Source of the DNA: Ceratodon purpureus
Taxonomy: Eukaryota; Streptophyta; Bryopsida; Pseudoditrichales; Ditrichaceae
Reading direction: 5' to 3'
Assembly (NCBI GenBank): GCA_014871385.1
Contig: CM026422.1
Coordinates: forward strand, 20,884,177 to 20,948,176
DNA: 64,000 nt
A model generated the notes under the pieces. It saw nothing but the letters and a program-made list of their open reading frames with translations, ran no database searches and had not been told where the DNA came from. A program made the translations under genes and the position numbers. Positions 17,070-42,348 of this stretch are shown in pieces. Within the stretch, counting starts at the first letter, position 1, and every line of letters starts with the position of its first letter.

Positions 17070-17345
17070 GTGCAAACCAACCAACCCAGCTCGCATTCAC
17101 CATGTGCGCGGGCAACCCATGAAACCGCAATCGTGAAGCAAATCCGTCAAAGTAAAACCATCCTGGTGCAGTCGTAACGCTCGTTGGGTTTGGCTCGTGG
17201 CCCTCACGTGGTGATGGTGGCGATGGCCATGGCCATGGCGATGGCGCCAATTCGCAGCATTTTTGATTGAAAATCAAAGTTGTGCAAAGTTTTTCACGCT
17301 TGCTGCGCAAACCCTTTGTTTTCTTGTTCATGAATGCACTAGTAC

Positions 17346-17411
17346 CATGCTGGTATCATGCTGGTATCATGCTGGTATCATGCTGGTATCATGCTGGTAT
17401 CATGCTGGTAT
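17346..17411. repeat. 11-bp minisatellite with degenerate tail
   Basis: Six perfect tandem copies of CATGCTGGTAT start at 17346. Degenerate GGTAT-centred units continue to about 17590. Only the left part is homogeneous, as if one edge of an older array expanded recently. Confidence 0.9.
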
Positions 17412-17590
17412 CAAGATGGTATGTCAGGGTACAAGATGGGTATCATCCTGTACAGTGCAGATATCAAGATGGTATACGGGTTCATGAGAGGGTATACGCG
17501 TGGTGTCGCAGATGTATGAGCGGGTATAATCTGGTTATATCTGATGTATGAGAGGGTATACGGGTGAAATCGGGAGGGTATCATCCTGGT

Positions 17591-18211
17591 GGTGTTGCAT
17601 TGGGTAAGATCACGATGAGAGCTGCCAAAGTGTTGTGGCGAGGTATTTAGTGTTACAAAAATTTCTACCTGGAGAAAGTAACGGTGTTTTTGCCATCCTA
17701 AAATTTTCTTTTTCTTTGGTTTAATATGGTGAATATTTATAATTATTTATATAGTATTCTTTAATAAGTCTAATGAGTATTTAAATCTAAATTTTACTAA
17801 GTTCACCATATAAAAATATGAAGCTCTTTTTGAAAACTAACAATGGATAAGGTCTAAATATTATGTTCTTTAATTGCTAATTGCTCTTTTTTACTTTTAA
17901 TTCTTTAAATTTTAAACAAACCTTCGTAACAATAGATAGTGATTCCTTTTAATTTACCAGAATTCATCATGGAAAAAGCTTTTGAAAATTAAACAATTTG
18001 GTCGTTTGTTTTTAGGCTAACGATAATCCTTGATTTAATATATAAACCTCTTTATTCCAATTGTTCATCAATACACTTTGAAATCAAAATGTTTAGATAC
18101 TAATTATTCTCAATTTCATTCATTTCCTATAACATAAAAACCAACAACTAATATCCTTTTTCCCACATGAAAATTAATACATTAAATCTACTACTTCAAA
18201 GATTAACTTTA
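17591..18211. other. AT-rich spacer
   Basis: No coding signal. From about 18132 onward this sequence matches 23020 onward, marking the 3' boundary of the duplicated Dof-like gene unit. Confidence 0.5.
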
Positions 18212-19249
18212 CTAACCGTAGTATGTGAACTTTTTACCGCAATCCATACATTTATACCTCGGTTGAGTTTGTCCAGCAGTTTTCTGATTATTAAAGTATT
18301 GGAATTCAGTCTTTAATGAAGGGCAATTTGGACATTTCTTTTCCACTCGGCGAAGATGGTCAGGCTCAAAAATACCCCTTGGTCGTCCGGGCCCACCCTT
18401 GTGTAATTTTTTTTTAACTGGTGGAATTTCTTCAGCATCCATGGATGATTGAGGTTGCTCAAGCACTGGTGCCTGAATTTCTCTACTAGGTCTTCCTCTT
18501 GGCTTCCTTGAATCACCATTGACCTTGGATTCACCATTTTTCATATCTCCAACATTTGGCCCATGCGAAAAGCCTTGATGTTCAATACCCTCTTCTGGCA
18601 AAGACTCCAATTCGTTATTGATTTGTTGCACATCAATAGGACGTTGTATGTCATTTGCATTGAATTGGCAACGAAGAATAGACCTTGGTAATTGTTCTAG
18701 ATGTTGATATAAGTGTTGGGCTTGTGTGTTATTTGTATTCAATCTGGGACAAAGATGTTGATAGACTCCTTGTTGGGCTTGTGTGTTACTTGTATTCAAT
18801 CTGGGACAAAGAACAGGCCTTCGTATATGTTCTGGATGTTGATAGACTGGGGCTTGAAACTGTTGCTGGTGTTGAAATAGATGAGATATATGTGGACCGG
18901 GTCTAAATATACCGGCAGTGGTTTGAGCATTATGAATACATGTATTTGGTAAAGATGGAGGATGATGTGGATGCTGTAATTGTCTTGGAATTGGCTGTTG
19001 ATATGGATGTTGGTAATTTTGTCCATTGATCGCACCTTGCATTGGTAGCTGAAAGTGTTGTCCATAGACTAGATCTTTTTGAGCCGCATAGATATCATTC
19101 GAATAACCTGGTAATTGATGTTGCGGACTTGGAGGCAAGCCAAAGTCTTGTTCATCAAATAAATCTTCATCGATAACACTAGCTTCACGCAAGGAATCCA
19201 CAAATCTTCCTTCATTCGATTCATCACCTCCTATCTCTACCTCCTCCAT
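18212..19249 (-). CDS. Dof-like zinc-finger protein with AT-hooks (intact copy)
   Basis: A single open frame of 345 aa starting MEEVEIGGDESNEG. An acidic N-terminus is followed by a Gln/His/Pro-rich middle (PYQQPIPRQLQHPHHPPS) with tandem repeats of about 18 residues around LNTNNTQAQ. Then come two AT-hook-like motifs (RKPRGRPS and GGPGRPRG) and, at the very C-terminus, a finger KKCPNCPSLKTEF...QPRYKCMDCGKKFTYYG. The CxxC, YFNN, QPRYxC and CxxC order resembles the Dof DNA-binding domain, but spacing between the Cys pairs is 24 rather than 21 and the protein ends right after the finger. I infer a nuclear DNA-binding protein of a divergent, plant-specific type. A second copy lies at 23098-23858 plus 42349-42709. 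The longer frame upstream of MEEV is not conserved in that copy, so MEEV is preferred as the start. Confidence 0.7.
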   Translation of the reverse strand: MEEVEIGGDESNEGRFVDSLREASVIDEDLFDEQDFGLPPSPQHQLPGYSNDIYAAQKDLVYGQHFQLPMQGAINGQNYQHPYQQPIPRQLQHPHHPPSLPNTCIHNAQTTAGIFRPGPHISHLFQHQQQFQAPVYQHPEHIRRPVLCPRLNTSNTQAQQGVYQHLCPRLNTNNTQAQHLYQHLEQLPRSILRCQFNANDIQRPIDVQQINNELESLPEEGIEHQGFSHGPNVGDMKNGESKVNGDSRKPRGRPSREIQAPVLEQPQSSMDAEEIPPVKKKLHKGGPGRPRGIFEPDHLRRVEKKCPNCPSLKTEFQYFNNQKTAGQTQPRYKCMDCGKKFTYYG

Positions 19250-20096
19250 GACGGAAAAAGAAATTAAAAATAAAAAGTAAATTAAAATAAAACGAAATAT
19301 ATTCACGTATACCAAATATAACCCGAAAAGAAAAACACGCCAATGTAAAAGCACCGGCTCTCGTCTCCCACGTATGTTATACCTCCCCACCGCTTCCCAC
19401 CTCGACAAACGGTATGGGTTTAATGTGCCAAACAGCTCTAGCACATCCAAAACGCAAACTTAAAAGCTTTTCCTCCACTGCAGCTCCCATCTGCCGCCGT
19501 CTTCCGCAAGGAAGCTAGAACACCATTAGGTAGAAAAAGCTTGAAGTTAGAATACCATAAAATAGAAAAAGCTTGAAGCTAGACAGTCAGTTATCTGACA
19601 CAAATAGAGGGCTTAGAATCCATTTACTGCAGTATACCTTCTAAATATTGACCAGGAATTCACTCTAACTGATACTAAGCTTCAGTGAGCACTACTCCTT
19701 TTAGCTTGCTTGGCCGGCACTTCTTGCAGATTTTTTGATGTTAAATTACCGGTCCTCAACGATCTCATGATCTGCATATTATAGCCGCGGCTCGGGAATA
19801 GCGGATTTGAGTTGTATCTTTTCGGAAACACCTATGTGTTTGGATTCATGATGAGGTTGCGGTATGCATGAGGAAGGTGTTTGGGGAGGAATCGAGTCGA
19901 AGTGGTCGATAGGTACACCATAGATTGACGTGACGCTGCAAGGTCGGCAGAGCTGCAATTGTTTGTCGCGCCGCTATCGTCTGGTTTGAAGGAGATTCAC
20001 ACGTGGATCATGTTGAATTTCAGATGATCTTGAAGGTGTTTTTCTTCATCGTAGTACTTTCTGACCGACTCTCCCTCTTTACAAACCTCGTTTGGA
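19250..20096. other. Intergenic, divergent promoters
   Basis: The left part up to about 19505 is the 5' flank of the Dof-like gene and is conserved in the second copy (42710 to about 42955). The right part leads to the UBC/F-box gene. No other feature seen. Confidence 0.45.
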
Positions 20097-20104: not shown

Positions 20105-20212
20105 AGTTGCACCCCTGCGCTCTGACCCTCTCATAGTGTGCCGACAATAGTCTCATCAATTCGGTACCTCTCCCAATTCTGCTCACAAACCCCTAACGAT
20201 TTCTTAGGCATC

Positions 20213-23097: not shown

Positions 23098-23858
23098 TTA
23101 TTGACCGTAGTATGTGAACTTTTTACCGCAATCCATACATTTATACCTTGGTTGAGTTTGCCCGGCAGTTTTTTGATTATTAAAGTATTGGAACTCAGTC
23201 TTCGATGAAGGGCAATTTGGACATTTCTTTTCCACTTGGCGAAGATGGTCAGGCTCAAAGATACCCCTTGGTCGTCCGGGCCCACCCTTGTGTAATTTTT
23301 TTTTAACTGGTGGAATTTCTTCAGCATCCACGGATGATTGATGTGGCTCAAGCAGTGGTGCCTGAATTTCTCTAGGTCTTCCTCTTGGCTTGCTTGAATT
23401 ACCATTAACCTTGGATTCCTCATTTTTCGTATCTCCAACGTTTAGCCTATGCGAGAAGCCTTGATGTTCCATACCCTCTTTTGGCAAAGACTCCAATTCG
23501 TTATTGATTTGTTGCACATCAATAGGACGTTGTATGTCATTTGCATTCAATCGGCGATGAAGAATAGGCCTCGGTAATTGTTCTAGATGTTGATAGTCTT
23601 GGGCTTGTGTGTTATTTGTATTCAATCTGCCATAAAGATGTTGATATTGTTGGGCTTGTGTGTTACTTGTATTCACTCTGCCACAAAGATGTTGATAGAC
23701 TTGTTGGACTTGTGTGTTATTTGTATTCAAACTGGGACAAAGAACAGGCCTTTGTATATGTTCTGCATGTTGATAGACTGGGGCTTGTTGAAATAGATAA
23801 GATATATTTGGAACGGGTCTAAATATACCGGCAGTGGTTTGAGCATTATGAATACATG
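23098..23858 (-). pseudogene. Dof-like gene copy 2, 3' part (cut by a MULE)
   Basis: Encodes the C-terminal two thirds of a close paralogue of the 18212-19249 protein: CIHNAQTTAGIF, three LNTNNTQ-type repeats, both AT-hook motifs and the complete C-terminal CPNC...CMDC finger, ending one residue later than copy 1. The frame is open up to the junction at 23858, where the Mutator-like element begins. The missing N-terminal part lies 18.5 kb away at 42349-42709 in the same orientation. Both halves lack internal stops, so the interruption looks recent. A chimeric frame continues from here into the element up to 24045. Confidence 0.85.
23850..23858. repeat. Left 9-bp target-site duplication of the MULE
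   Basis: GAATACATG, identical to 42340-42348 and present once in the intact paralogue (ATTATGAATACATGTATT). Nine bases is the typical Mutator duplication length. Confidence 0.9.
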
Positions 23859-23886
23859 GGGTCGCACTAACTACCCCCCCACAAAC
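23859..23886 (+). repeat. Left terminal inverted repeat of the MULE
   Basis: The 28-base left end pairs with the right end in inverted orientation. The inner 19 bases (TAACTACCCCCCCACAAAC) differ at one position from the right end; the outer 9 match only partly. Confidence 0.8.
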
Positions 23887-24505
23887 TCTACATTTTGCAC
23901 ATTTCGGGCAGGAGGGGGCTGCCCGGTACAGGCTGTCTCTCCCATGACCATCCCGGGTCTCAGTGGGACCCGGCCTTCTGACAGCGAACCCGTGACGGCT
24001 ATGCCAGCTGTCTTTGCCAGCCCTGCGTGGCCTATGGATGAGCATTAACGACTTTTGGTTGGGCTCTGTTACCCCAGGCAGGGCTTGTCCTGCAGTGGGG
24101 TTTTATGAATGGCGGGTCCCATAAGTTTTTGTGCTGCCAACTAATCCGGATCTGAGAATTTAAACTACACTTTAGATAACGGATAATTCCGACATTCTTC
24201 TAAGAATGGGGGTATCTAAAGGTTTAGGCAAATCATGCAGTGCAGATTATTTGTTGTTCTACTAGGATCCAAAAATTAGGGTTCCTTTTGGTATTAGGGT
24301 TAGAGTGGATGCGGCTTAGGGTTTATGCTGCACCAAACACATGTTCTGCTTAAAAGATGTATTTCGTCCTGCAACAAACGTGTGCAATGAAGAGGAATTA
24401 GAGAGGAACTGATGTGGTTTAGGTTTCTCTGTTTTGTGTGAGTGAATTGTTTGTCTTCCCTTTGATTATATGGTTTAGGGTTGACTTACTACGTAGTTCT
24501 AAAAA

Positions 24506-27500
24506 ATGGCCCCAGGTGTTGATCTGTCCAGTGATGACTCGGACTGTTGCATTGTCCCTAGGCGTTTACATGAAGCAGTGAAGCTCAGTAAGAAGGTGAT
24601 AGGAGGTCCTTATGAACTAGGTGCAGCATTTGTTGACCTGACAATTGAGAAACATCTTGATGAAACTAGAGAAGCAGGGAATGGAAAGTCTAGGGAGGAT
24701 CCAATTCAGATTGGTGGGTCGTTGAAGAAAGGGGAAGTTGGTCCATCATTTGTTGATTTATGTTCTGAGTACAGCAGTGATTCCACGTTCAATTTGAATG
24801 ATGCTGGATTTAGGTATTCCAAGAGCTCAGTAGTGGACCTTTGGGAGGGTTCATCTCAGCCTTCTTTCTATGAGCGTCCTGTGCACATTGATGTCACAAG
24901 TGATAACACGTTGTCTAGGGACTTTTCAACTTACCACAATTCCCAAAACTCTGCTGGTATAGGTGGTCCAGTGAGGAGGGAAGTTGTTAGTGATGAGTCT
25001 TCTATGCTATCCTCTGGAACTGATGATGTTATTGAGAGACTCCGTTCTTTAAGTACTGGAATGAAAGAGATGTATGTAGACTCTGAAGTATACTTGTCAG
25101 AACATTCTTCTGCTTCTGAGAACTATACTGATGTAGATCTGGGTAAGGGGAACGGTATGGGAGAATGTGGAAACGCAGCTGATGTCAAGTGTGATCAGCT
25201 GCCAACATCGATGGTTGCAGATTTTAAGAGTACGAAGGTCAATCTGACTAAGATTCAAGGCCCTTCAAAACAGGCAACTCCAGGGTGTGGGACGAAGTCA
25301 GAGAACGTGGGAGAAGGTCTTTCTACCGATGGTGCTTCGAAGAAAGCTGTAGGGGCTCATGGTGCTCCAAAGGCAGAGGCCGTTCCTGCAGCATCACCAA
25401 AACGGCGATCTGCAAGGCCTACAGTCCGGAAGAGGAACTTCTGTACAAGCTCAGGAAAGGCACCACCGATTGTACTTGTTGATGACTGGGATACCGAAGA
25501 GTTCCCTTACCAGGGACCAGAGCGCGAGAAGGAGCTTCTGAAGAAACTGAGGGAATTCAAGCAAACTCCACCACCAGGACCTTTTTGCAAAGATGACATC
25601 TCCTGGGAGCCAATTCGAACTCAAAGTGCAGGACAATACTTTTTACACGAGGTTGCCGTAATTCCATGGAGCAGATTGGATGACTTCAGAACTGGAGAAG
25701 GTATGGATAAAAATTTCCCGTGCAGGTTCACTAAGGAGACTCAAAGGAAGAGGGCACCAGGCTCTCTAAATATCCCTCGAGCAAATAGCGCGTCCAAGGT
25801 TATTAGGTAATGAATCCCTGATGCCTGTTTCATATGGTTTCGAGCAGATTCTGAAGTTAAAAATGAATCTGAACCTTCAAATTCTAAACGTTGTTCTGCA
25901 ATACATTGCTCAGGTTCAGTTGTAACTACGGTCCTGCTGATGACTCCGCTATCTATATCAAGGACCTGAAGGGTCTCCTACAAGCAGAGCAATTGAAGAG
26001 GAAGAAGACAATAGCCACTGTATTACAGAAGAAGAAGCGAGGGAAAAAGCCCATGGCAGATTATGATGTCATGTCCTCTGACAGAAAAACAGGCCATCAG
26101 AAGACTCGCATCGGTCAGAAGGAGGCTGGAACCTCGATGAAGAGGGGGTGCTTGCGGCACTTCATTGCAAAGCAGAACTACATGGATAACAGCTTGTGTC
26201 AACTTGTATACAAGATAAGCGAGCATGTGAATAGCAATGGGGACCAGTGTCACGGTGTGGCAGTGGCTGGTTTCAAACATTCTATGGGCACATGTCTCTC
26301 TGATAAGAAGAAGAGTGAGCTCACTGAACTCCTGGATTGTGGCTTAACACCAACTCAGGTGATGGTACAGCACAAGGCGCACATGATGGAGCTCGCCTTA
26401 CAGAATGTCCCAGTGCATAGGGACATGATCGTCTTGCCTCATGACGTCAGGAACTTGGCCAACAAGCGTGCAGGGGATTTGTGGATGAAGCACAAGAACG
26501 AGGTTGTGAGCTTGAGAATGTGGAAGGACGAGAACATTAAACGTGTTTTTTTTTACCAGGAGCACAGCTTGCTCGACATGAATATCACTGAGCAGCAGAA
26601 CAACCCCTTTGCACTCGGATTTCAAACTGAATGGCAATTTGAAATGTTGCTCAAGTTTGGAAATAAAGGGGCCCTTGCAATCGATGCTACCTTCGGCACA
26701 AGCCACTCAAGGGTAAGACAATCTCAGTTGCTGTTTTGTGTTTTGTTTTGAATGCTGCTGTTGAGGAGGTTCTGTGACCTCATAGTAAACAATCGAAGTG
26801 TAGAGTGTTTACACATTCGTGGACTACGCCTAAGCATATCTCCGTTGTCTGGATTGCACTACAAGCCAACCCCTGTTACTAACTGCTCTTGTAAATATGT
26901 TCTCCAGTATCCTCTATACACCGTGATGGTGTTTGACGAATGGAGAAGCGGGATACCTGTAGCGTACTTCTTCTCTTCTTCAGCAAAAGAAGAACATCTA
27001 CAGCCTATACTACAGGCCTTGAAGGACAAAGTCACCAAGAAACTACCTTCCTGGGAGCCTTCTTCTATCATTGTTGACAATGCCCAAGCGGAAATTAACG
27101 TCTTGCAGTAAGTTATTAGAAGAGTTTAGGGTCTAAATGAATAGCATGTTTCATACATCAACACTGGTTTGCTTTGTCTTGTCTTGCTTTGTCCAGTGAT
27201 CCTGACTTATTCATTGTCTTGCTGGACTGTAGAAAGCTCTGGCCACAGTCGAAGATCCTTCTTTGCTTCTGGCACGTGAAGAAGGCATGGGCCGAGAATG
27301 CTAGAACAAAGATAAGTCGCATTGAGGATAGGGCTAAAACATTGAAGGAAGTTGGAGACATCATGTATGGGAAGGGATTCGTCCACGGGAATGATCCTGT
27401 GGAGTGGGCCAACAGCGAACTTGATAAAATTCGATTGCGTCGCCCATCTGCAGAGAGATTCATGAAATACATTGATAAACATTGGAGGAAGAAGATAGGG

Positions 27501-28457
27501 ATGTGGTGCATCTCGAATCGGAATATTCCTCATGCAGGACAGAACACGAACGCTGCTATAGAGTCGTACCACGCTAATCTAAAGCGCATACTGTACCTGG
27601 AGAAGCAACGATTTATGGGGCGGCGAATGGATTGGACGGCTGATGATCTGCAGCGAGTAGTGACTGGGCACTACTGGTACTTCAGGGTGTTAAAGGAGTA
27701 CGGATTCATTCGGAACAGGAAGCAAGAGATTATCATTTGTAGTGCCATATTGGCCGCCCAAGAAATCCCAGATGACTACGTTAGCTTGAATCCAGGGGGC
27801 GAGGATATTGCACTTGTTGTCTCAGTGAACAATTATCCCCAGGTACATACCGTTTATGGACCTGATACTGAATGGGCTCAGTGTGATTGTTTTATGGCAG
27901 AACAGGGCACAATGTGCAAGCATGTGATGAAGTGTTTTGTCATGAAACACCCTGACATTGAGGAGGGCCTTATCCTTCGGGAGGCAGGATCAAAGTGTGG
28001 AGTACAGAGGACAATCCCACTAGCTCAGTGTTTTGAATCTATGCCCCGAGAAGAGGATGAGGATGTGGGCGGTGCAGAATCAGACAACAGTTCTAGTGCA
28101 TCATGTGTAATAGGGCCAAGTATTGGTAGTGCAAAGAACCCTATCGTTCTAAACAGTACGGAGATGCAGTACAACACTACACCAACAGCACAACGACCAC
28201 TCACACAGGACAGCCCAGAGGTTGTTTTCAAGGACCTCCTATGTACCGCTGCACAACACACTGCACTGCAGCTTCATCTGGTGTCAGACTTAAAAATCAT
28301 AAGAGGGAAGTACAAAAGGATGATAGCTCGTGGAATAGTTCGTCCTGACAGTAAGGATACCCCTGCGGCATTTCCACTTAGAGGTGGGGACTGGTCCTTA
28401 AAGAGAAAACCAGGTCGCCTTGAAACACCAAAATCTGGTAAACGATCTAGGGTGTAG
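24506..28457 (+). CDS. Mutator-like (MULE) transposase
   Basis: DDE transposase expected to cut and move the 18.5-kb element. Four exons in phase: 24506-25806, 25914-26712, 26908-27107 and 27233-28457, giving 1174 aa. The N-terminal 430 residues are Ser/Asp-rich and poorly conserved. A conserved block starts at TPPPGPFCKDDISW and continues through MKRGCLRHFIAKQ. The MULE core has Asp691 (AIDATFGTS), Asp757 (IIVDNAQAE), FWHVKKAW and Glu877 (NTNAAIESYH), i.e. the expected D, D and E. A SWIM zinc finger follows: Cys984, Cys986, Cys995, His997 (CDCFMAEQGTMCKH). The exon 3/4 junction (Q then KLWP) is set by the paralogue at 58126, which splices at the same place. No break was seen, so this copy may be functional. 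It ends 348 bases from the stop of the convergent ULP gene A. Confidence 0.88.
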
Positions 28458-28804
28458 CATTCAGTCGGGCCTGATACTTCTCTTTCCCTCAAGCTATGTG
28501 CTGTTTAGAGTTAATGATCATTACATGTGTGATGAAGGTAATGTGGAGCCTTTATTATGTAGTGCTCCTTATAGGCTATATCTTTTTGTCTGCTTTAGTA
28601 TTTCTCGTTTGCCCGTTAGGCATATTGTGTACCAGGGTTCGTACCTACCATTTCAGATATAAACATCAGAGTATTCTATACTAAGTCTACCACGTTGTTG
28701 CATTGTTATTGCATCGGACATGAAGGAGTTCCATTTGTAATATACAACAACAGTACCCATACATGCAGTACATATATATTTCTTATAAAATGTGCACAAC
28801 AATC

Positions 28805-31800
28805 TCATGTGTTGTGGATACATGACACCACAGAGGTGCATCCACAATGCTTCAACCCTCCAGACTCCACTCTACTCTTCCATCTAGAAAATCCTCCCAA
28901 AAGTTGAACATACGTACTGCTGGGCTTAACACATTTAAACTGATCTCGCGTTGGAAAAGGCACGACTTGCAACGGTGCACCCCTGTGACTTGCACCACGT
29001 ACTACTGAAAGCCCTCTATGTCTGTGTTGCTGCGATGGTACCTTTCGGCGATTAGAAAGGGACAGTGGCATCCGTCTCCCTGCTCCAGATCGGTCTACTT
29101 GAGGCTGCTCTTCTTGCTTGTCACGGGCGGGAGGACACTGAAGGTCCGCCATTGCCACCAGGATTTCCTTCACCTCTAACTCTAGCTTCTCCATAACCTA
29201 GTGGGTAAACGAAATAGAAGAACAGAAGAATGTAAGGGAGTACACGTCTTACTCAAACGATCTCAAGCAATGGCTGTGAAAGAGAGGACGAATACCATAC
29301 GGGTGAGATCTTATGTAGTCATCTCAGTCACCACCTGCGTGGGCCCCCCTAAACCCTAAATTTTGTACAACTGTGCAGCCCACTTGGGCAGCACAAAAAA
29401 CACCTATTTTAGGGCACCACCCTCATGAGAACAATGCAGTTTAAATTAATAAGAAATCATGTCCATACATTCAGAGTACTCAGACGACGTGTGATACCGA
29501 AAGAACTATAGTATCAAATTGGTCCATATCTTGTGCCTAACCCCATGTCGCCCCAGTTTTCTCTTTAATGCGCCCCGATCGCCGAGGTGGGGACGCGTCT
29601 CCTCTCTTTCCCTTAGTTCTGTCTTGTACTTTGCTTGTGATTACGTCATGGAAGCCCACGCTTACCTTACATTCCAAATCATCCACAAGCCCGGTAACTA
29701 TGGCGCGCAAGATTGCAATCTTCAATTCTGCTTTGATCTCAAGAACCTCCTTCTCTCCAAATATGTGAGACATCTGGATCAATAAAGGAGAATAGTAAGA
29801 TTTGAAGTTTCGGTTTGAAAAAAAAAACTTACTTCAAAGCTTAGCAATGTTGCAGGACAACACACCTCCTGCCTCCAGTCCACAAACCGCTTGTTCGACC
29901 AGTATGTCACGTACATGATAATGTAGCACATCACGTAATATCCGCAAGACCAGTCATCACCTTGCTGTGGACATTTCACACGGATCCAGGAGTTTAGGTC
30001 TGTGGCATTCACCCATGTGGCAGATCCTTCCTTGTGTCCCACAGCAATGCACCACAACTTCCCTAGGGACTGATGTAGTTTCGTAGAGCCATGCAATGTT
30101 TCTCCGGAATTTGAATCGAACTTCAAGAAATGTTCACTGGAGAGAATCGCCAGGCTCCAATGCTCACTGTTAACAATAGGGACCATGATAGTGTTGCCCT
30201 TCACGTGCCTGAACCCGGAGCTCATATGAAAGCACCGACGCAGTGCTTCGATGTCCGTTGTCTTCCGGATGACTTCGTACAGGGCTGTTGCTGGCAGTGA
30301 ATTACAAAGGAGAATTGGCTCTGGCACGCAGTCTTGAAACCAAGCACAAAAGAAGTCCATCGAGGGGGAACTGACTCTACCTTCTGGCGAGTCTACTAAC
30401 TGCATGTCCGGGACGGGGTACAAGGTTGTGCTGCCTTTCCGGAAGACAAAGGACAGGAATGCCGCCTCCTCTGGGCCGTGATCTTCAGATATACGTTCCC
30501 TTGATATTCTGTACGCGCTGCATGAAGGACATGAGAGTTCAAATATAAGTACAAAGTACGTTCCAAGGCTGTAGCACAAAGAAGAACATGCAATATGTTG
30601 CAAGGCTATAGTACAAAAAAGAACACACAGTAGAGGGATGGCAAAGTTTGAAAGGACGATGAAGAGGATTTTGTTCTAGCAACTGTATGAAAATTTACAT
30701 GGGATAAGCTACGGTCTATACTACCTACTGGGCTGGGCCCATACTGTGGAGGTTCGAGGTGCCGGATCTGTAAGAGGTCGCGGTATCTCCAATGGCAAGG
30801 ACTGTGCTGATTTGTAATCTTTTGTTGGTGAATTAGTCGACTCATTGAGGTTAAAGGCTGCTGGTGCGAAAGCCGGATCTTCTGGTGTACGTAGCAATCC
30901 AATCAATGGTCTTGCTTGCAGGAAATGGGCTACGATCCGCGACGGTGGTGTTACGGGAGATGGAGTTGCATCCATGTGTTGACCCCGATCTGGGGCAATA
31001 GTCGCTAGAGGGAGCACTTCTGGTATACTGCTGGATGGAGGAAGACCATCACCCACACAGTCGGTATGCAGGACATGTGATCTGTTCACCGGCGGCTGGA
31101 TGCTTCTGGGGGGGTCTTGTCCTGCTATGTCTTCTATGGGATAGGAACCAAGGTCACTGCCGAGATCCAGAGGTCGCATGGGGGAAATAGCGGCAGATAT
31201 ACGGGACGGCCCCAGCTTTAAAGCCAGATGTGCTGGAGTTCGGCGGTACCACCTCTGGTTCGGTAGAAGCACCGATGGACTGGGATTCTTCATATGCTCA
31301 TACAATATCCTCCTCTCTCTCTCACCCCCGTGAGCCTCTGGAAACACCTCTATATTCCCCCAATCTATCTGAAATGTTTGGGAGCTAATCAATTGAGAGC
31401 AGAAAGGGATATCTAAATGTGCGAGATCGATGGACGGCTGCGCTCCTTTATATCCAAGCCTCTGGAAAGTCAATTCCAATTCCTTCTCGCGGAGGTCCAT
31501 TAGCGCCTGTACTGCCTTATCAACATACTTCTTCAAAGATGGAGGGGGGTACGGTACATTATCCAGTCCAAGCATTCCCCAACCAACATCGACGTCCTCA
31601 CGTACATATAGTATCTTAGAAGTAACCTGACATATACACAGACTTCAGATGTTATAAGTCCTGTAACCATTCTGCAGTACATCAAAACCAAATGCAGCAA
31701 ATAACATAGACATTGTATTTCAAGCACATTACAACCGAATTGTCTGTTTAATACCTCGTCACAATGTTTTCGAAGCAAAGTTGGATCGCTTGGGCCCTGT

Positions 31801-34738
31801 GCCCACCACATGGCAGCAAGCACATCTCCGTACGCATCAGTACGATGCATGTCTAGCACAGCCCGTCTGGCAACACGACAGAGAAAACTCTCAATTTTCT
31901 CCAGTACGGGTTCCTGGTTCCAGCCTTGAAACGCCATAAGACCAACCATATCCCTCGAACATGTACTGAGAGGATAACAGAACCCTACCTTTATGCAAGG
32001 AAACAATGACCACCCAATGTCTATTATGTCTTGCGCACAAGAGGATAGTCTCTGCGACTCTATCCTGTCCCTAGCAATGGCCAACACTTTTTCCCTCGTC
32101 ATCCCATTCACGGGATGGGCGAGAGCACAAGTGCGCCCCAGCGACACTCTGGTATACAACTTCAAAGCCCTTACGATATGTGGGCACTCTAGCTCTAAGG
32201 TCATTGGTTCAGCTGTAGCTTCCTTCTGCAGCACAGCCAAAATACTCTCCAGTTCCTCTGAAGTGTGGTTCCAGGGTCGATCTGGTAGCCCCTGAACAGT
32301 CTGCCGTGTTAATATCCTGAAAAGAGGAGACCATGCCCATGTACTGTCTTCAACTTTCATTCTCTCTTTGTCCTCAAATCGCCGCAGCTGAGTTCGAATG
32401 TGAGCCTCTCGCTTCTCCTGTAGTGCTATCTCAGCATTGAGCTTAAGGGACACGTACTCTGCCTTTTCCCCTAGATACTTCAAGTACAATCTCAGCTTCT
32501 TTAGTTCTGCTTTCCTACCCTCCAGGTTTGCTGGTTTTATGTATGGATTCCAAGGCTTAACGGACATCATGACAAACTGGACCACTTCTGCGTGATGTTC
32601 TCCGTCTTTACCAGCACCCTGCAGTACAAAATAACAAGTTTATACCACAAATTTTATTTAGTGTATCCCACTGAATGCAATACCAAAGTCTCATGGACTG
32701 CCCCATATGCCATGTTACAAAGCACCGCAAAGACAACCTACTTCTTGCAGTACTGCACACTGAATTAGGATCCGCAGTACAAAGTGTTCAGTACCTGAGC
32801 TTCTCTCCACGCCACCCAAGGCCCGATAGATGCTAAAATCTTTGCGCCTAGTTGGTCATGTATCTCCAGTTCTTCTAACGCCATCATGCACGATTCAGGG
32901 TCGTGGAGCAATGATCGCTCTACTATTATAGCCTTAGGGGATTCCTGAAGGAGGTAGTACAATCCTGCAATGCTTTGGGGAACAGGGGGGGGGGCCCAGC
33001 TTGTATTCACCGTCGAGAGTAAGCGATGCTGCGTACTGTTGAGCCCTCTGCATTACATCTTCTCTACTCATGTTGTCGCCAATGTAGTGCAGATCATCAT
33101 TGTCTACAGATGAGCTTCGAACTGGTAAATTCGGTCCAGGCACTGAAATTTTGGGAGCCTCCAATCCTGCACCTAAGTCACGTACCCTTCCACTCTCATC
33201 CCCGCCATCCAAATGCTCTGCGGCGTAGAACTGGGAGACATAAAGAATGTCTTCCATGACGTCTGAATCCGATCTCACATTGTCTAACCCCTGTAGGACA
33301 TCAGGTCCTTCTGGCACCTTAAACCTCTTGCGTTTCCTATCATCCCAGGTCTCTGACTCCTTGTTCGGAGGAAAAGAATGTTCCGTGCTCACTCGACATA
33401 TGGTGTCTTGTAGCTCTTCCACCTGTTTTCTACCAACGCGCCCCTGACCTGTCCTGACTTTTCTAACTTGTGCTGCAGTTTGTTTTGCCACCCCTGTTTT
33501 CCCCTTTTCGCTCTCTACCTTCTGTTTACCCCTTTCTGACACTCGAAGATCTGTCTCCTGCACTACACCTGTCACTGTTGTAGTCCGCGGATTCCAGGGA
33601 CGACTGCCCTCTTCTCTAGGAAACGACAAGTGAAACTCTGCAAGAATGTCCTTCACCGCCCCTCGTTCACTCTGCAGAAACGTTGGGTACATTTTAAGCA
33701 CACCTGTACCGTCCTTCTTCCACGCATCGCATTGATCCTTGTAACGGTGATAAGATAGTGCATTTTTATCCGAAAAATCTTTATGACAGTACCTGCACCA
33801 ATAGTAATACCGTTTCTCCAGCGGCGGGTCTTGCCAGTAGTGGTATCGGCATAGATAATGAGCCTCAATGACTAGCTCCTTGAACTCCCGCTCAGTGTAT
33901 AAACAGGCACAAGGTACTCTCCCTTGTTTTAGCTCAGACCGGTACACAGGCTCCTCTCCGACCGTGACCCCCTACATTTCAATACATCTTCAATTACCGA
34001 GCACAAAGCCGATACACTAAAACCGTCCCAGAAATCAAATCCACTAAGACATTAGAATGTAACGCACCTGTAATTTGCCCACAGCTCCTCGCAGAATCAG
34101 CTCTTTCCAACGCTCGTATCCTAGCCCTTCAATTAGACGTGTGTCTTTATTCACTATCAGCTTCTCGTCCTCGGGGAAAGACACTCGACCAGCCGTGAAT
34201 CCGATGTTCGGGAGAGTGGATGACCCTTTGATACCATTTGCCCCTCCTGGTTCCATCACAGTCCATCTACGAGGGATGGGTTTCTTCTTAATTTCTGCGA
34301 AGTCCGAGTCTGAACTGGTTGCAGAAGAGTTTGCTTCATGACCTCCTCCAGACCCTCCAGGAACCCCTTCTCGTAAACCTAATAGCGGCTCAACTGCAGC
34401 GTCAATTCCCTCAGCTAGCACAGAGTTCCGTTGCGATCTCGCCCTTGTGCTTCTACCTAGTCCATACAACAACCGTGCCCAATAGATTTCAGGACAAGAA
34501 AACAGCAGCAAAACGTTGCCCTAAGTAGACCATACTTTTAGAGTTTTGGAACCCAACAAATAATTCAGCACTGGAAACCAACGTATCATATTCAACAGCA
34601 AATTCACGAAATAGAAGTCACGAAGGAAAACCCATAATTAATCTCTTCGAAATTCCAACTCAAAAATGCGATAGACTGCAAACCCTATACTCTAGTCCTA
34701 CCTGCATCTCCGTTGGTGACCACCTTCACTCGCCCCAT
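28805..34738 (-). CDS. ULP1-type protease gene A of the MULE
   Basis: Eight exons inferred by splice signals, phase and alignment to gene B: 34702-34738, 34068-34456, 32795-33971, 31755-32618, 30725-31626, 29833-30517, 29666-29773 and 28805-29197, about 1517 aa. Order: short N-terminus (MGRVKVVTNGDAG); a Cys-rich block (CACLYTEREFKELVIEAHY, then CRYCHKDFSDKNALSYHRY) like a C2HC finger; a basic linker; a conserved middle (PWNPYIKPANLEGR, ESQRLSSCAQDIIDIGWSLF); then a C48/ULP1 protease with His (NSEHWSLAIL), Asp (LKFDS), Gln (VKCPQQGD) and Cys (WSCGYY). ULP1 proteases process SUMO or related modifiers; what MULE versions do is unknown. A 10-G run at 32985-32994 shifts exon 3 by one base relative to gene B, so this copy is probably broken there or misread in the assembly. 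Confidence 0.72.
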
Positions 34739-37109
34739 CCCCCTTTGAGCACTTTTCTACAAGCGCTCCCCAGTCCTCCCGGCCGCTCATCAGCTTCTCC
34801 CTCCCGTCTTCAAAGTTGCCTTGCGAACCCTGTACCCGCAACCACGCCCCCGTTGATGTAGCGATTCCCCTATCAAAACACATCAATGGAGGCACCGTGA
34901 AGAAGCACACTCCCTAAACTTCGCAATGGAAATATAAGACTCTTCGCTGCAGCACAAGTGTAAGCTACAATGCGCTAAAATCAAGTATGCAGTACAACCA
35001 CTTAACAGGACAAACGATGTCAATGAGAACCACTCTCTGTATTGTAAGTTACTCAAACTCCGACACCACGGTAGAATTCAAGAAACCTTAAACCAGTCTC
35101 TTATAAACATCAATCTGTAGATGCTCTTGTCCCACCAGACGGTACTGAACCTTAGAAACAAGAGTATTGGAGTCGTATGTCTTGGAATTGAAAATATTCA
35201 AATTTTTTAAATTTGTAATCATGTCTCATAATTTTATCAAACTATATTCGAATCATACATATGAATATGTATATTATATTGTTCTTTCTTTACTACTCAT
35301 TAAAATCCCAAGTACTTATTTATCTTCTGCATATATATTCTTTAATTTGACATTTACTCTTTATTATATTATTTTTATGTTTTTTTTCCATATTAGCAAT
35401 GTGAACATAGTTTTCTATTTATTAAGAATTTATTTTGTTTTCCCATTGAATTTCTCTATTTCCTTCTCTTGAATATTTAAATGTTTCTTCCAACCTTTGT
35501 TTATTAGTTTTCATATATATCATTTAATTTATTTACATTGTTGTATTTAAATCATTTGTTATCATCTATAGTTCTCTTTTTAATTCATTTTATACCTTCT
35601 AAATTTTGTATACATCATTCTATTTTTGTTTATGTTGTTTCTTTAATTTTGTTTTGAATTTATTTTCTTTGTTCTATTTAAATCATTGATTATCGTCTTT
35701 TGTTTTCTTTTTAGTTCATTTCGTCCTCTTAAAATTTCTATACATCATTTTGTTTTTGTTTGTGATGTTTTCGTTTCTTCAGATTTAATTTAATTTATAT
35801 TTTATTTCATTTATTTACTTTATTTTTTTCATTTCTGTTCTTGCTATTTATATTTCATTTCTACATTTTATCTTTTTTTTTTCTTTTTTTTTTAAAAATT
35901 TTGCTTCATTTAATTTAATTTCTTTCCTTTTCTATATTGTTTTTTGTTTGGTACAACTCCATTCAACGTTGTTATTTTATATTTCTCAACCATCTCAATA
36001 TTTGCCCATCCAAGTACTGCAATTCTAAATCTTTATTTTATACTATTTCAATTTTTTGGTCTTTTTGTTTGTTTTTTTAATCGTACACTCGTATTGCATT
36101 GTGAACTCTCTCCCTCTCTCTAAATATATGTAGTAATTATATATATATTAAATATTCTCCATTAAATCTACCTCATTGGTGTATTATAATAAATTCGTCC
36201 ATACATTTTCATTTCTGGTTTTATTCCTTTACATGTTTTTTTTTTTTTTTTTTTTTTAAAATATTTTTTATTCTTTTTTTTTTTTGTAATATCTTTATTC
36301 TCCTACTATTTATCTTCTTGCTCTTGACCTCTTCATTTACCCATTCCGTTTTTTTCCTTCTTATTTAATTTTCCCTTTTGTACGTTTATCAGTTTATCCT
36401 TATATTTAAAACATCTTTACCAACTTCCACAATTTTTAATTTCTTTAATTTTGTTTTTTTTTTCCATAAATTTACGACGTCCCTTTTAATACCCAAAGTG
36501 TTTTATTATGTATCTTCTATTATTTGTCCCCTTATTTTTTTGTGCTACTATGTATTTATTCGAAATTTTAATCCCCTTTTCTTTTTATTAGATGCTGAAT
36601 GTTGTTTTTCCCTATAACTGGAGAGTACAGTACCCTTGACCAAGAATTTGTAATTTTGTGCTGCAGTTTAGATATTCCTTTTGCTCTATTTCACCTATCA
36701 CTTTCTAGCACAAATTCTTCATCCCTTAATTATCTTTTGTTTTTTGGGCCAATGTTGTCATTTATCTTCATTGGTTTATTTTATTTATTTATTTATTTTT
36801 CATTCTCTACTTTCCTTTGTGCTTGGATCTAGGTTTTCTTTTATCACGCCTTCGAATGCTTTGTACTATTTATGTACTGCACATTCATATCCTGGTAAAT
36901 CTTAGAGACCTCTACACCAGCATTACAGATCAATATGAATAATGGGGCGAGCATTCAAACATTTAAAGAGCGTGGAAAGCGGGACCCAAAGTACTTCTAA
37001 AAGACATCATTTACAAACTTAGTGACGCCAAGGTCAATACCGTCCAAACGATAGCATCCAAGTGCACCTAAACCTATTTTCACATCCAGAGCTGGAATTA
37101 GGTCATTCA
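34739..37109. other. T-rich spacer inside the MULE
   Basis: Between the two ULP genes. From about 35170 to 36900 the plus strand is strongly T-rich, with many T-runs and few G. No coding signal was seen. Either an old noncoding insertion or a composition-biased spacer. Confidence 0.5.
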
Positions 37110-40100
37110 CTATGGCTCCAAAATTTGCACTTCGCTGCGACAGCGGTACAAGGTAGAGTTCTTCTCCTGTAGTATGCTCAATACAGCCTTTTGCAAGTCG
37201 GATCTCACCTCTCCAACGGCATCAGCTCCAAAGATATCGCTCATCTGCCAAACAAATAAACACAGCTTATCAATAAAATGCGGCATGGCTAACATAAATG
37301 TAGAGAGGAGTTACTTTCAGTAGAAAGAACAGTGAATTAGGGGAACTATGCAGTACTTACGTCACTCAATAGTTCAGGCGTTTTTAGTTGCCTCACGTGA
37401 TTATTGTACATTATCATGTAGGAAATTACATAATAACCACAAGACCAACTGTCATTCTGTTGTGGGCACTTTACGTGCACCCATGAATTAATGTTGCTGG
37501 CCAGTTTCCAGGCATGAGATCCCTGGCTATGACCCACTGCCATACACCAGATCTTGGCTAGAGCCTCGTGAAACCTCTGAGGGCCATGGAAATTTGTATT
37601 GCCCACAAAGCCAGAATCAAACTTCAGGAAACCCTTCTCACTCAAAACAGCCAAACTCCAATGCCCATAGTCACACACTGGAACAATGAGAGTACTCCAC
37701 TTCCTTGCATTGCCATTCAGATGCACCTTCATAAATTCTTGTAGTGCACCCACTTTCGTAGTCTTGTCGGTGAGGTGCCGCAAAGCTATGGCAAAAACTG
37801 TAGGACATACCAGAATTTCTGGAGATAGGGAGGTCTGAAACCAGAGCGAAAAAAAGTCCATGAGGGGGGCACCCAGTTTTCCCTGATTCTCGTCGAGCAC
37901 TACCATATCAGGATCAGGCCTCAGAATTGTACTTCCCGTCTCGAATGTAAACTCAACACACCCGTGTTGTACGTGACCGCGTTCTTCATTAATTCTCTTT
38001 GACATAACCTCGTACAGACTAACAATTAAACTTTGAGTTAAGTGTTGTCTTTTAGATGAAGACATGTAGAATGTTAGAAGCTACAGTACAACAGTAGCTT
38101 CCTGAACTACAAGGTTCACAAGTACGGGCTTCGGGGAGTTACAAACCTAAGTAAGAGACCGCTATCAGTAGTTGATGTGGATATCTTCTCGTTCTGATCA
38201 TCTTGTCCCGCTGCCGTTGGTTGTTCTGCTTCAATAGTCAGTGTAGGACTTGGACTACTGTTCGTATTTATGCATTGCAAGGGAATTACACCCGGCCCAT
38301 CCGTGTTGTCATCGACCACGCTCGATGTAACATGGTGTTCCTGCGTATGGCCAACACTGACAGGACTATGCAGTACATCCGAACCGACCTCTGTCTTGCT
38401 ATAGCCTAGCACGTCGAATGCAACCTCCAAGCCCTTTTCACGAAGTTCCACCAGTGCCTTAGTTGCATTGTCGAAGCTACTGTGGATCTCATCGGAGGAG
38501 TTCGTCGCTTGTCCTGCACCCAACAGCGCCCACCCTGTATCCACGTCTTCTCTAACAGCGAGCATAGTGGAGAAGACCTGCGACAAACCAAAGGTAATCA
38601 GAGGTGTTTAGTTCTCTTCTTTGTGTATTAAGTGCGTCCATGTTATTCACTACAATAATTAAGCTTAGCAACTGCTGTTCCCTACAGAAATCTTTAGCAT
38701 CTGCACTACGCTGTCATTGTTCTGCTTTTATCTTAGGAATTTTTAGTACCTAGCATTATAAGCACCATAGCATGTATGTTAGAAACTGTACCTGTAGGGA
38801 TTCAGCCGTCGGTGAAGAGTCGAGGTCGGAGGTAGAACGTGTCCACATAGCCAATAGGTGTTTGTAAGAATTATTTGTCTGGCGCATGTCAAGGAAGGCC
38901 TGCTGATTGATACGACTAAAGAAAGAGTGAATTTTCTGAAGTACAGCCCCTTGTTTTTCAAATTCTCCCCCAATCAGAGAGTAAATATCCTGTGAGCAGT
39001 TAGAGAGTGATTCCACGGGTTTACAGCGAATACACGGGAAAAGAGTCCATCCAAACTCTGACACTTGCTGAGCGCAGCAAAGTAACCTCTGAGACTCCAC
39101 TTGGTTATTGGCCATCTCCAACAACCTCTGTCGTGTATATCCTAGCGTAGGGTGACACACCGGAGTAAACCGCGACATCGACAGCCGTCCATGAATTTTT
39201 AGTACACGCACTACATGGGGGCAGTCCTCCTCCATAGTGGTCTGGGTCCTCTGGTCATCGCCTTGTACTGCATCAAGTATTAAGTTTAACTCATCTTCAG
39301 AGTGCTTCCACGGCCTCGGTGGTGCACACTTAGGTAAGTAACCGACCAAGGCTTGGAACAGTGGAGACCACGCCCACTCCTTATTCTCAGCGTCAAGCAT
39401 CTGTTTTGCCTCATACTCATTTAGAACCGTCTCAATGTACTTCTCCCTTGCCAACTGAATCAAATTTGTAGCCCTCACCTCATACGCGGCCTGCTCTTCT
39501 ACGTATCCCAGGTAAGATGCGAGTTTTTTGAGCTCCTGCTGCCGTCCTTCTAAATCCGGGCTGCTCACGTACGGATTCCATGGCATAGTTGTTAGGTGCA
39601 CAAACTCTTCCTTGTTGTCCTTGTCCAATGTACCCTGTAAGTAGAGGCCATTAACATTAATTCTATAACATGAGGGTATTGCAAGGAAAAAATGTAACCA
39701 TCAGAAAATAAGGGACTGCATATAGTTTTCAACCTAAACCGTAAAACAAAAACCATCGGAACTTACCAATTGTGCTCTTCTCCAATGGATCTAGGGCCCC
39801 ACTGCAGCCATAATTTTGTCACTGAGAACACCGTTTTCCTCAAATGTGGTTAGAGCAGTCATGCAGACCTCCGACTTCTTCAAAAGAGCCGTGTCCACAA
39901 TGTGCATCGGAGACTCGGACAGAAGGTAGAACAAACCCGGTACTTTCCGGATTAAGGGAGGGGGGCCAATCTCTGGTATGTCCGCAGCACAAATGCTATC
40001 AGCATGCCTTTGTGCTGCGGCATACACTGCCTCCCGAGTATCTGACTTGCTATTATACCCATCGTCGAGGATACTCCTACTTCCGGGAGTCGCCACCCCT

Positions 40101-41299
40101 TCCATGTCGTTCGGAGATACAGGTTCTTTCAATTTAGGCCCTTTGGACTTCTTCGGTCGCTGGGGGGGTGAGCCAATAGGACTTGCAGCACAGGATGTTC
40201 CGCCATCTACGTCCCCTGGTTGTGACTGTAGGGACGACAGAGTCCGGCCTTCATGTCTGAAGCGTAGGAAATAACGTGGCGGGGCATCATCTTCGTAGGT
40301 TAGTATCTTCTTGGTATCCGAAGACGTGTCGGGTTCAAAAATCCTCTTTAGGCGCTTTAAGGAGGTGGTACCACTCCGTACCCTAGGTGAGTTACCTTTC
40401 TCTTGAGGCACTACATTACCTGCTTCATTCTTCAGCTCAGCGTCTCCACTCACTCCACCTTCAGGCTCCATCAGAGTCGAAGACCCTTCCATCGCAAACC
40501 CGGTCGTCACGCTGACTTCCGGCTCCGACCCTGTAGATCTTGATCCCTGTATGTACGTCCTTCTTCTATCCTTTGGTTTCGTTTTCTTCTCCTTAGAGTT
40601 GCATTGCTCCTCTATAGCCATCTGCTGTCTTGGTGCCCACGGTCGAAGCTCTGGAGGGGCAGGAAACCTAAGTCCTACTTCCTTTAGAATAGTACTAGTG
40701 ATCTTCTTGTCGCTAGGACAGAAGGTTGGGTACATTTTTAGAACAAGTCCACCTTTTCCCTCACCCTCCTTCCAAGTAGAGCACTGGTCTTTGTGTCGGT
40801 GGTACGAAAGTCCATTTTTATCCTTAAAATCCTGTTTGCAGAACAAACACCAAGACCAGCGACGGTTATCATTATAGTAATGATACCTGCAAGTGTAGTG
40901 CGATTCTATAACAAGTTGCTTGAACTCATTGTCGGTGTATAGGCACACACAATAAACCCTTCCCTGCTTCAGTGAGTATCGATGTACAGCCTCTCCTCCC
41001 ACTGTGACACCCTCTAGTATCCCGACAGATTCAGAATGTACCAAATCAAGCCACTTCTGAAACCCCAACTCCTTAATTAGCCGATGATCCTCATTGACAT
41101 TAAAGCCCTTACATAAAAACTTACTAACAACCCGCCTTCCAGTAGTACCCCCTCCGCTTTTAAACTGTGCGACAATTCCTCCCTCCGCAGCCAAAGAAGT
41201 CCTGGGGCACAATTCTCTGTACTGTACAGACAAGTCTTCAGGTGCAAGGCTCGATGAGGCAATTAGATTGAGTCCACTGTTCTGCCTACTGTCCTCCAT
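37110..41299 (-). CDS. ULP1-type protease gene B of the MULE (one internal stop)
   Basis: Five exons: 39767-41299, 38792-39634, 38147-38577, 37361-38018 and 37110-37244, about 1199 codons. The start is MEDSRQNSGLNL. It parallels gene A throughout: CVCLYTDNEFKQLVIESHY, finger CLFCKQDFKDKNGLSYHRH followed by KDQC, middle PWNPYVSSPDLEGR and ESQRLLCCAQQVSEFGWTLF, protease His1055 (YGHWSLAVL), Asp1070 (LKFDS), Gln1122/1123 (VKCPQQND) and Cys1129 (WSCGYY). Near the end of exon 1 the codon matching Trp in gene A (GPW) is TAG (39791-39793), which would cut the protein before the protease. The downstream frame stays open and splice phases hold, so the stop is either recent or read through. Divergence from gene A suggests an old duplication inside the element lineage. 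Confidence 0.75.
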
Positions 41300-42311
41300 T
41301 ACTTCCTATAACCCCATCCCAATCAAATGTTCTAATCTAAAACCTATGTTCTTGTCTTCCTCGGATGTTGTACTGTGTGATGTTTTCGTGGCCATTCCCT
41401 TCCATAAACCCTAAACCTAGGTGATGCTCTTCCCGAGATCTGATTTCCCTAAACACTCCAACATAGGAAAACAGCATTAGTAAACCCTAGCAGTCCTTCC
41501 AAATGCACTCACAACAGAGGTATGAACAGTAGACGAAGTACAACAATGAACCCTCCGCATCAAACTAAAACACCCATAAAACCGAATCAAAGATAAATTT
41601 TTGTAACACATATATCAATAATAAATCAAAATAAAGGTAAAGAACAAATGAAATACCTTGCATTAGGAGCCTTCAAAGTCTCTGAATCCAAAAATGTCTC
41701 CTTTGCCGACCCTAAGCACCCTAAACCCAATAAATTACATATAACACATTCCAGGAGCATAACAACGTCATCAGCGAAGAAAATAAAAGGAACTTGACTT
41801 ATATCACGACTGAAATGCCATACCTCGGAGCTGGAGCCTTCAAGTCTTCACACCGACGTTGAACTTCGCATCTTCACCTAGGTTTACAATACCAATTCTC
41901 CCGCACACCATACCGGAAGCACTCCACGCCATCCCAACGCCGTCGATGCTGTACTATCTAAACCCTAATGTACTCATCCTACTCCATTTTACAGGAAAGA
42001 CAACTAAACGTACTTCCAGGACAACTAGTCTCACTGTGATAATGCAGCACAAAAGTGGGTGGCAGCACAGCCACATCAACGTAGAACAAGACTCCGCCCA
42101 GAATAAAACCCGACTACCACTGTAGACGATGAAGTCTAATGAAGGAGCGAAGGGAACTTGGACGAAAAGGTTTGCAAGCTGGCATACCGCGTGGGCCCGG
42201 GACCTGGGCCATCACGGGCCGCCCGGGATCTGGAGGGAGCCGGGCCCGCCATAGACCCAGCCGCCATTTCGACGGGCAGGGTAAGGCAGCCCGCAACATT
42301 GGCGGAATGGG
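41300..42311. other. Right subterminal region of the MULE
   Basis: No gene. AT-rich near gene B, becoming GC-rich from about 42170 (GGGCCCGGGACCTGGGCC), like the left end. Probably holds the promoter of gene B and transposase-binding sites. Confidence 0.5.
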
Positions 42312-42339
42312 GTTTGTGGGGGGGTAGCTAACGTCCGGC
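42312..42339 (-). repeat. Right terminal inverted repeat of the MULE
   Basis: Reads on the minus strand GCCGGACGT followed by TAGCTACCCCCCCACAAAC, pairing with the left end at 23859. Confidence 0.8.
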
Positions 42340-42348
42340 GAATACATG
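42340..42348. repeat. Right 9-bp target-site duplication of the MULE
   Basis: GAATACATG, identical to 23850-23858. Downstream the sequence continues as in the intact Dof-like gene (TATTTGGTAAAGATGGAGG). Confidence 0.9.

Follow-up and report, generated by a model that had tools for sequence, protein, structure and literature searches.

A Mutator-like element with terminal inverted repeats in Ceratodon purpureus: a dispersed ten-letter motif and two ULP1-type genes point to a possible self-addressing and anti-silencing system

To our knowledge, how plant transposons escape silencing by means of their own proteins is understood mainly from the VANDAL group of Mutator-like elements (MULEs). There, VANC21 binds YAGTATTAY, VANC6 acts on elements bearing AGTTGTCC/AGTTGTAC, a motif-dense region of which it bound in vitro, and the VANC proteins remove silencing (PMC5735166, PMC10398659). 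VANDALs with an Ulp1-carrying VANC (KIU) are said in a review to recognise motifs and hypomethylate their own kin likewise, while the function of the ULP domain on plant transposons is called unknown in the same review (PMC13317346). Here we describe a MULE of 18,481 bp in a 64,000-nucleotide stretch of the Ceratodon purpureus genome (assembly GCA_014871385.1, contig CM026422.1, positions 20,884,177 to 20,948,176; this whole stretch is the window referred to below). It carries a transposase gene and, in the opposite direction, two paralogous genes, A and B, that encode a C-terminal protease domain of the ULP1 (C48) type. A ten-letter DNA motif with the consensus TGCAGNACAA is dispersed over its exons and spacers alike. 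At a probability of roughly 0.4, we propose that this is a plant transposon of the Mutator-like kind with terminal inverted repeats (TIRs) that supplies the means both to address itself and to counter its silencing.

The motif, which the original prediction for this locus had not noticed, is the best clue to function. A word scan of the element first raised TGCAGTACA, GCAGCACAA, TGCAGGACA and their kin. In the form GCA[CG]NACA, the motif has 51 sites in the element as opposed to 9 in the rest of the window (45.5 kb), and 200 local order-2 simulations of the element that kept its trinucleotide make-up gave a mean of 6.96 sites (standard deviation 2.6, maximum 13). The full consensus is found 14 times in the element, where 0.32 copies are expected from 100 simulations, and once elsewhere in the window. 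Most single changes to the core GCAGNACA drop the count to near expectation. Counts stay higher with C in place of the second G (14 against 2.7 expected), A for the first C (14 against 5.4) and T for the first C (9 against 3.6), followed more weakly by A for either G (10 against 5.5 and 9 against 4.0) and by a few others at small counts. The outer T and A are preferences, present at 22 and 24 of the 37 core sites. Both strands are used nearly equally (28 and 23 sites), the sites are spread evenly over the element outside an A+T-rich spacer (Kolmogorov-Smirnov P 0.88), and the excess stops sharply at the element ends, beyond which no 2-kb bin holds more than two sites. The distances between sites show no regularity beyond chance (P 0.32). 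Longer dispersed repeats are disfavoured as the source of the motif, the sequence being flat beyond ten letters.

Coding sequence takes part in this excess. Compared with shuffles of synonymous codons, GCA[CG]NACA is found 13 times against 2.9 in gene A and 11 times against 2.5 in gene B (matched in 0 of 500 shuffles for each), and 8 times against 3.4 in the transposase gene (P 0.008); the noncoding DNA of the element holds 19 sites in 7.27 kb. When words were derived from noncoding DNA and counted in coding DNA, the top two, GCAGNACAA and TGCAGNACA, were found 13 times against 2.1 and 12 times against 2.4 (0 of 400 synonymous shuffles), and six of the eight words tested were enriched at P <0.02, most of them variants of one another; this split is a partial guard only, the motif having been seen beforehand. 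A signal at the level of RNA is disfavoured because the coding sites favour neither strand (19 sense, 13 antisense, P 0.38). The motif resembles a recognition site for a DNA-binding protein and would act, if at all, at the DNA level. The sites also differ in place between the two ULP genes. Among the 24 coding sites in A and B, 19 have a gap-free counterpart in the other gene (the remaining five were excluded) and 0 of these 19 are conserved at the homologous place, the counterparts being one to five mismatches off. It follows that the sites were gained or lost once the genes had duplicated. In one near-coincidence, 1 of 13 A sites lies no more than two columns from a B site, in opposite orientation (0.48 expected). 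A motif placed evenly in exons and spacers, yet differently in two paralogues, would extend selection for self-recognition into protein-coding sequence.

The DNA uptake sequences of Neisseria and Haemophilus are likewise self-tags of about ten bases over coding and noncoding DNA; they belong to bacterial genomes and to DNA uptake, and the likeness is an analogy only. The closer parallel is the VANDAL/VANC system of Arabidopsis, in which a dense, short, element-specific motif lets a protein of the element recognise it (PMC5735166, PMC10398659), the reader in the present element being putative. When the motif described here is read as its reverse complement, it even has TTGTNC in common with the VANC6 motifs AGTTGTCC and AGTTGTAC, although this may be coincidence, the chance being 0.006 for one comparison. 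VANC21 motifs, as described, are mainly noncoding, often lie in tandem repeats and have one orientation, whereas the present motif lies in exons and spacers and in both orientations.

That the motif-bearing segment is a single inserted unit within an exon of a Dof-like gene is confirmed by an empty site in the same window (coordinates are given in Table 1). The flanks, joined after removal of one copy of the 9-bp duplication, align with a sister gene at 84% over 1475 columns; the alignment runs unbroken across the junction, the 138 gap columns lying elsewhere, and the empty site is exact to the base. The ends therefore belong to one element, as the original prediction had supposed on the strength of a perfect duplication and inverted termini. 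Both of these features hold: the copies of GAATACATG are identical at 9 of 9 bases, which falls within the 8-11 bp (mostly 9) of MULE target-site duplications (PMC6446971), and the TIR core TAACTACCCCCCCACAAAC matches between the two ends at 18 of 19 bases. Beyond the core, the similarity of the TIRs is weak and gapped. A 16-base core, CTACCCCCCCACAAAC, occurs exactly twice in the window, once per element end. With up to three mismatches allowed, these two sites are still the only ones (0.46 expected); such loose matching yields two sites in 7 of 100 shuffles, while the observed pair is exact and sits at the ends. Since the duplication is perfect and the host frame is open apart from the insertion (414 codons from stop to stop once rejoined), the insertion at this site is probably young. 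The interrupted gene (22901-23858/42340-42832) and its sister (18215-19459) are Dof-like genes in tandem.

The transposase identifies the element as a MULE. Its gene model was the longest of four (1172-1186 residues) that passed a splice-consensus filter among 399 open splice combinations; it has four exons and no stop codon, and the Pfam MULE domain (PF10551) is matched at E 8.7e-12, with 45.8 bits against a cut-off of 27.6. By known motif patterns, we take its DDE residues to be D691, D757 and E889, and its SWIM motif to be CxCx8CxH from residue 996. The Pfam SWIM model was absent among the hits for the transposase.

Genes A and B have a common architecture, with a finger-like motif at the N-terminus, a conserved middle and the ULP1/C48 domain at the C-terminus. 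Their exon models were built from frame comparison and splice sites. Four introns are common to both in position and phase, B having one extra near its start, and the proteins are identical at 430 of 1116 aligned residues. The finger region is the most alike (56 of 86 residues); next come the ULP region (90 of 204), the middle (109 of 281) and, last, the linker (39 of 186). Over 1115 codons, compared with a script of our own and with the B frame bridged, the proportion of nonsynonymous differences (pN) is 0.44 and that of synonymous differences (pS) 0.83, which is saturated; A and B were thus constrained for long after their duplication. In the sequence as it stands, both ULP frames are broken according to these models. 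Gene A has 1199 codons and gene B about 1346 once a frameshift is bridged, where 1200-1500 had been predicted. The prediction had overlooked a TAG that lies in frame in A, Trp being found at the equivalent place in B, and a shift of frame at a run of ten C in B. These are either true lesions or assembly errors; catalytic residues and splice sites are intact in both genes. Considered as a second signal, runs of C number 3 in A against 0.43 expected (P 0.008) and 2 in B against 0.76 (P 0.18), the B sequence tested being without the C10 run.

In B, the C48 family is matched at 25.3 bits (E 1.6e-5, in the frame holding the exon) against a Pfam cut-off of 20.7. In A the score stays slightly below this cut-off, with 20.4 bits in its frame and 16.9 for the whole protein, and A is tentatively placed in C48 through its paralogy with B. 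The His, Asp, Gln and Cys catalytic residues that had been predicted are present in both and align with 6dg4. Against solved structures, a profile of A and B together matches this Ulp1-like SUMO protease at 4.9e-4 and ULP1 (1euv) at 0.017, and among the 11 sequences matched at E <=1, eight are ULP/SENP and three neuroserpin. The finger-like CxxC...H...C motif was read off the sequence in both proteins. For the middle region, the predicted structure is poor (predicted local distance difference test, pLDDT, 39.3). DUF3452, a retinoblastoma-related domain, falls below threshold in the middle of A (38792-39634; 17.8 bits against 26.3 in A's frame, 12.3 in whole A) and has no Pfam match in B's frame. 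A protein-kinase-like fold for the middle was unconvincing, the best PDB profile match having E 0.02 over only 24 positions. DUF1985, which the accessory protein of Kaonashi elements carries and which was presumably present in the profile library scanned, was without a match in whole A (E up to 5), in the frames over three A and four B exons (E up to 1), and in exon 3 of A as well as, for B, the two terminal exons and the part of exon 2 that follows the C10 run.

In having a C48 gene opposite to the transposase, the element resembles the Kaonashi/KIU elements of Arabidopsis and other eudicots (PMC2528002). It differs in its TIRs, Kaonashi being described as non-TIR (PMC2528002), in having two ULP genes, whose products bear a finger-like motif at the N-terminus and give no match to DUF1985, and in motif sites that extend into exons. 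Likewise, VANC proteins have DUF1985 (PMC5735166), whereas A and B are without a hit. A lineage separate from Kaonashi, as had been predicted, would fit the features tested, namely the TIRs and the lack of a DUF1985 hit. What does hold is a large MULE with two diverged, long-constrained ULP paralogues that have a finger-like motif and a conserved middle. Ginger-ULP elements are also DNA transposons with a C48 gene, and we know of no motif of the dispersed self-tag kind in these or in CACTA-ULP elements. The latter are similar in carrying a C48 gene on a DNA transposon (PMC2528002), but both groups have transposases of superfamilies other than MULE.

Why should a transposon carry a short motif throughout its length together with two large protease genes? 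The motif suggests that proteins of the element recognise it by this sequence, perhaps to escape silencing. Three candidate readers are encoded by the element, namely the transposase, A and B. Our preference is for A and/or B: no part of the two proteins is more alike than the one with the finger, and other elements are known to encode readers of dense motifs in their own families. A and/or B would bind the motif all along the element through the N-terminal region, and the C-terminal protease would then free silencing factors at these places from SUMO or a related modifier, a step that we infer from the domain alone. The action on SUMO at the transposon or the host chromatin that the original prediction had proposed is likewise conjectural. 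The transposase would thereby be expressed and other copies would be kept active. The duplicate ULP gene might serve another modifier or another stage, or simply dose. Since each ULP frame carries one lesion, the copy described here may now depend on other copies for its ULP proteins. The strictest version of this scenario, in which a 10-bp self-address runs the length of the transposon in exons and spacers and is read by its own finger-ULP proteins that strip SUMO-type marks from end to end, is less probable than the general one. If true, it would represent an anti-silencing system separate from VANC and kept as two paralogues, with coding sequence itself selected as a binding substrate.

Several points weigh against this proposal. 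The finger is weak: zf-C2H2_4 is matched at 0.004 in B, under the cut-off, and A is without a match; the predicted structure of the finger region is poor (pLDDT 51.6), and a fold search with this model gave 0 of 178 matches at E <=0.001 among solved folds. Binding by A or B is conjectural, and the transposase or a host factor could be the reader of the motif. The choice of SUMO as the target is an assumption, and a review doubts that the Arabidopsis Kaonashi proteases act on SUMO (PMC6117577). Each ULP gene bears a lesion in the copy examined, and this is a single copy. The motif pattern came out of a k-mer scan, under a rough coding mask, of the very element in which it was then counted, and its P values are best taken as effect sizes for that reason. 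Two of the eight noncoding-derived words, GGCNGCACA and CCCTAANCC, are without a coding excess. Finally, four element-length control stretches of the same window, which overlap one another, have top 8-mers with 10, 9, 8 and 14 copies, where the element reaches 12. All of these, perhaps with the exception of the third, are presumed to be local repeats (a tandem array at 17342-17422 and a G+C-rich block at about 61 kb). Because raw counts are so similar, spread over 1-kb bins was scored instead: the best gapped word in the element reaches 16 bins and a score of 21.1, while the top four words of each control reach at most 7 bins and 12.9.

It is possible, though unlikely, that the transposase or one of its cofactors binds the motif in the interior of the element and so helps to compact or synapse a very long unit, the ULP genes being unrelated passengers. 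MULE transposases bind near element ends, and GCA[CG]NACA has no site in the first 227 or the last 270 bp of the element; nor does its even density show the concentration at the ends that such a role would lead one to expect. Nevertheless, sites at 24130 and 42062 lie near-symmetrically about 270 bp inside the two ends, and 18 kb is long for cut-and-paste transposition, the efficacy of which, according to a review, falls once the cargo exceeds 6 kb (PMC6431247). A reader supplied by the host, or a bias of mutation or replication with no element-coded reader at all, would sit well with a motif that is element-wide, unstranded and found in both coding and noncoding DNA. Yet a general bias would affect the neighbouring genes too, where the excess ends sharply at the element boundaries, and the core combines fixed letters with a single free position, which is what a protein site would be expected to show. 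We consider this explanation rather unlikely.

The element could also be an ordinary ULP-carrying MULE of the Kaonashi type, a decaying transposon with captured proteases, in which A and B are pseudogenes without a living function. ULP-carrying MULEs have been described from Arabidopsis, melon, rice and grapevine (PMC2528002, PMC13317346), and the stop in A and the frameshift in B are what decay would produce. Only one lesion is found in each gene, however, over some 1200 and 1350 codons, with catalytic residues and splice sites intact; constraint has been strong over a saturated synonymous distance, the open host frame makes the insertion look young, and dead cargo would leave the motif unexplained. 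On these grounds decay seems improbable to us. A self-addressing element, with A and/or B as readers, has the merit of offering a directly testable protein-DNA pair, and a link between motif and ULP domain might account for the repeated presence of ULP proteases on transposons of plants. Neither a motif over coding and noncoding DNA of a transposon nor a MULE with two ULP genes was found among titles and abstract openings of the open-licence literature, a scope that leaves subscription papers mostly outside.

Table 1. Coordinates of the element, its genes and related features, as positions in the window
Feature	Position	Strand	Details
Whole element	23859..42339	.	18,481 bp; single inserted unit
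Target-site duplication GAATACATG, left copy	23850..23858	.	perfect 9-bp direct repeat
Target-site duplication GAATACATG, right copy	42340..42348	.	perfect 9-bp direct repeat
Left terminal inverted repeat	23859..24140	+	strong core 23868-23886; weak gapped similarity to ~280 bp
Right terminal inverted repeat	42040..42339	-	core 42312-42330; weak gapped similarity to ~300 bp
MULE transposase gene	24506..28457	+	exons 24506-25806, 25914-26712, 26908-27107, 27197-28457; 1186 residues, open
Gene B	29537..34256	-	exons 34256-34068, 33971-32795, 32618-31755, 31626-30725, 30517-29833, 29773-29537
C10 run, frame shift point in gene B	32985..32994	-	run of ten C
A+T-rich spacer between genes A and B	35000..36650	.	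~20-35% G+C; T-skewed; zero motif sites
Gene A	37110..41299	-	exons 41299-39767, 39634-38792, 38577-38147, 38018-37361, 37244-37110
In-frame TAG in gene A	39791..39793	-	Trp at equivalent place in B
Sister of interrupted host gene	18132..19504	-	Dof-like gene entry 18215-19459; Zn_ribbon_Dof 3.1e-8

Some smaller features of the element deserve mention. Arrays called by Tandem Repeats Finder inside it are confined to the A+T-rich spacer. A nested insertion was considered as the origin of this spacer, but the best bordering repeat, AATTTGTAAT, proves nothing in such sequence. The telomere-repeat-like word TAAACCCTA occurs five times in noncoding parts of the element (24317, 29350, 41405, 41481 and 41959) and nowhere else in the window, and AAACCCTAA occurs four times inside and twice outside. 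An Rfam scan of the whole window gave 0 matches. A collection of viral contigs yielded no relative with the A N-terminus, the A/B ULP profile, the transposase core or the TIR core, and a prokaryotic one yielded none with the finger profile; given the nature of these collections, the result is uninformative on copy number in the host.

The neighbourhood includes a second, related MULE transposase at 58654-60945, with 32-45% identity in three tblastn pieces (best 3e-58) and no motif excess in its region. It has no clear ULP gene next to it: a comparison with gene B, run unfiltered, shows nothing there but weak similarity at 59127-59600 (E 0.007), which overlaps the transposase, and at 57616-57747 (E 0.13). 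Clear ends with a duplication were not found around it, and at about 61-62 kb comes a block of G+C-rich repeats. The transposase at 51516-52841 (Plant_tran 7e-64 and 1.2e-16 in two adjoining frames) is presumably of the PIF/Harbinger type. Adjoining the element at 44234-48068 is a resistance-like gene of the TIR-NB-ARC-LRR kind, in which the TIR domain (here the protein domain, 7.1e-29) and NB-ARC (1.2e-23) are matched and the LRR is read off the sequence only. Together with the Dof and Plant_tran matches, it marks the DNA as that of a plant. An open frame of 718 codons from stop to stop lies on the other side of the element at 20126-22279 and encodes a ubiquitin-conjugating UQ_con domain at residues 52-169.

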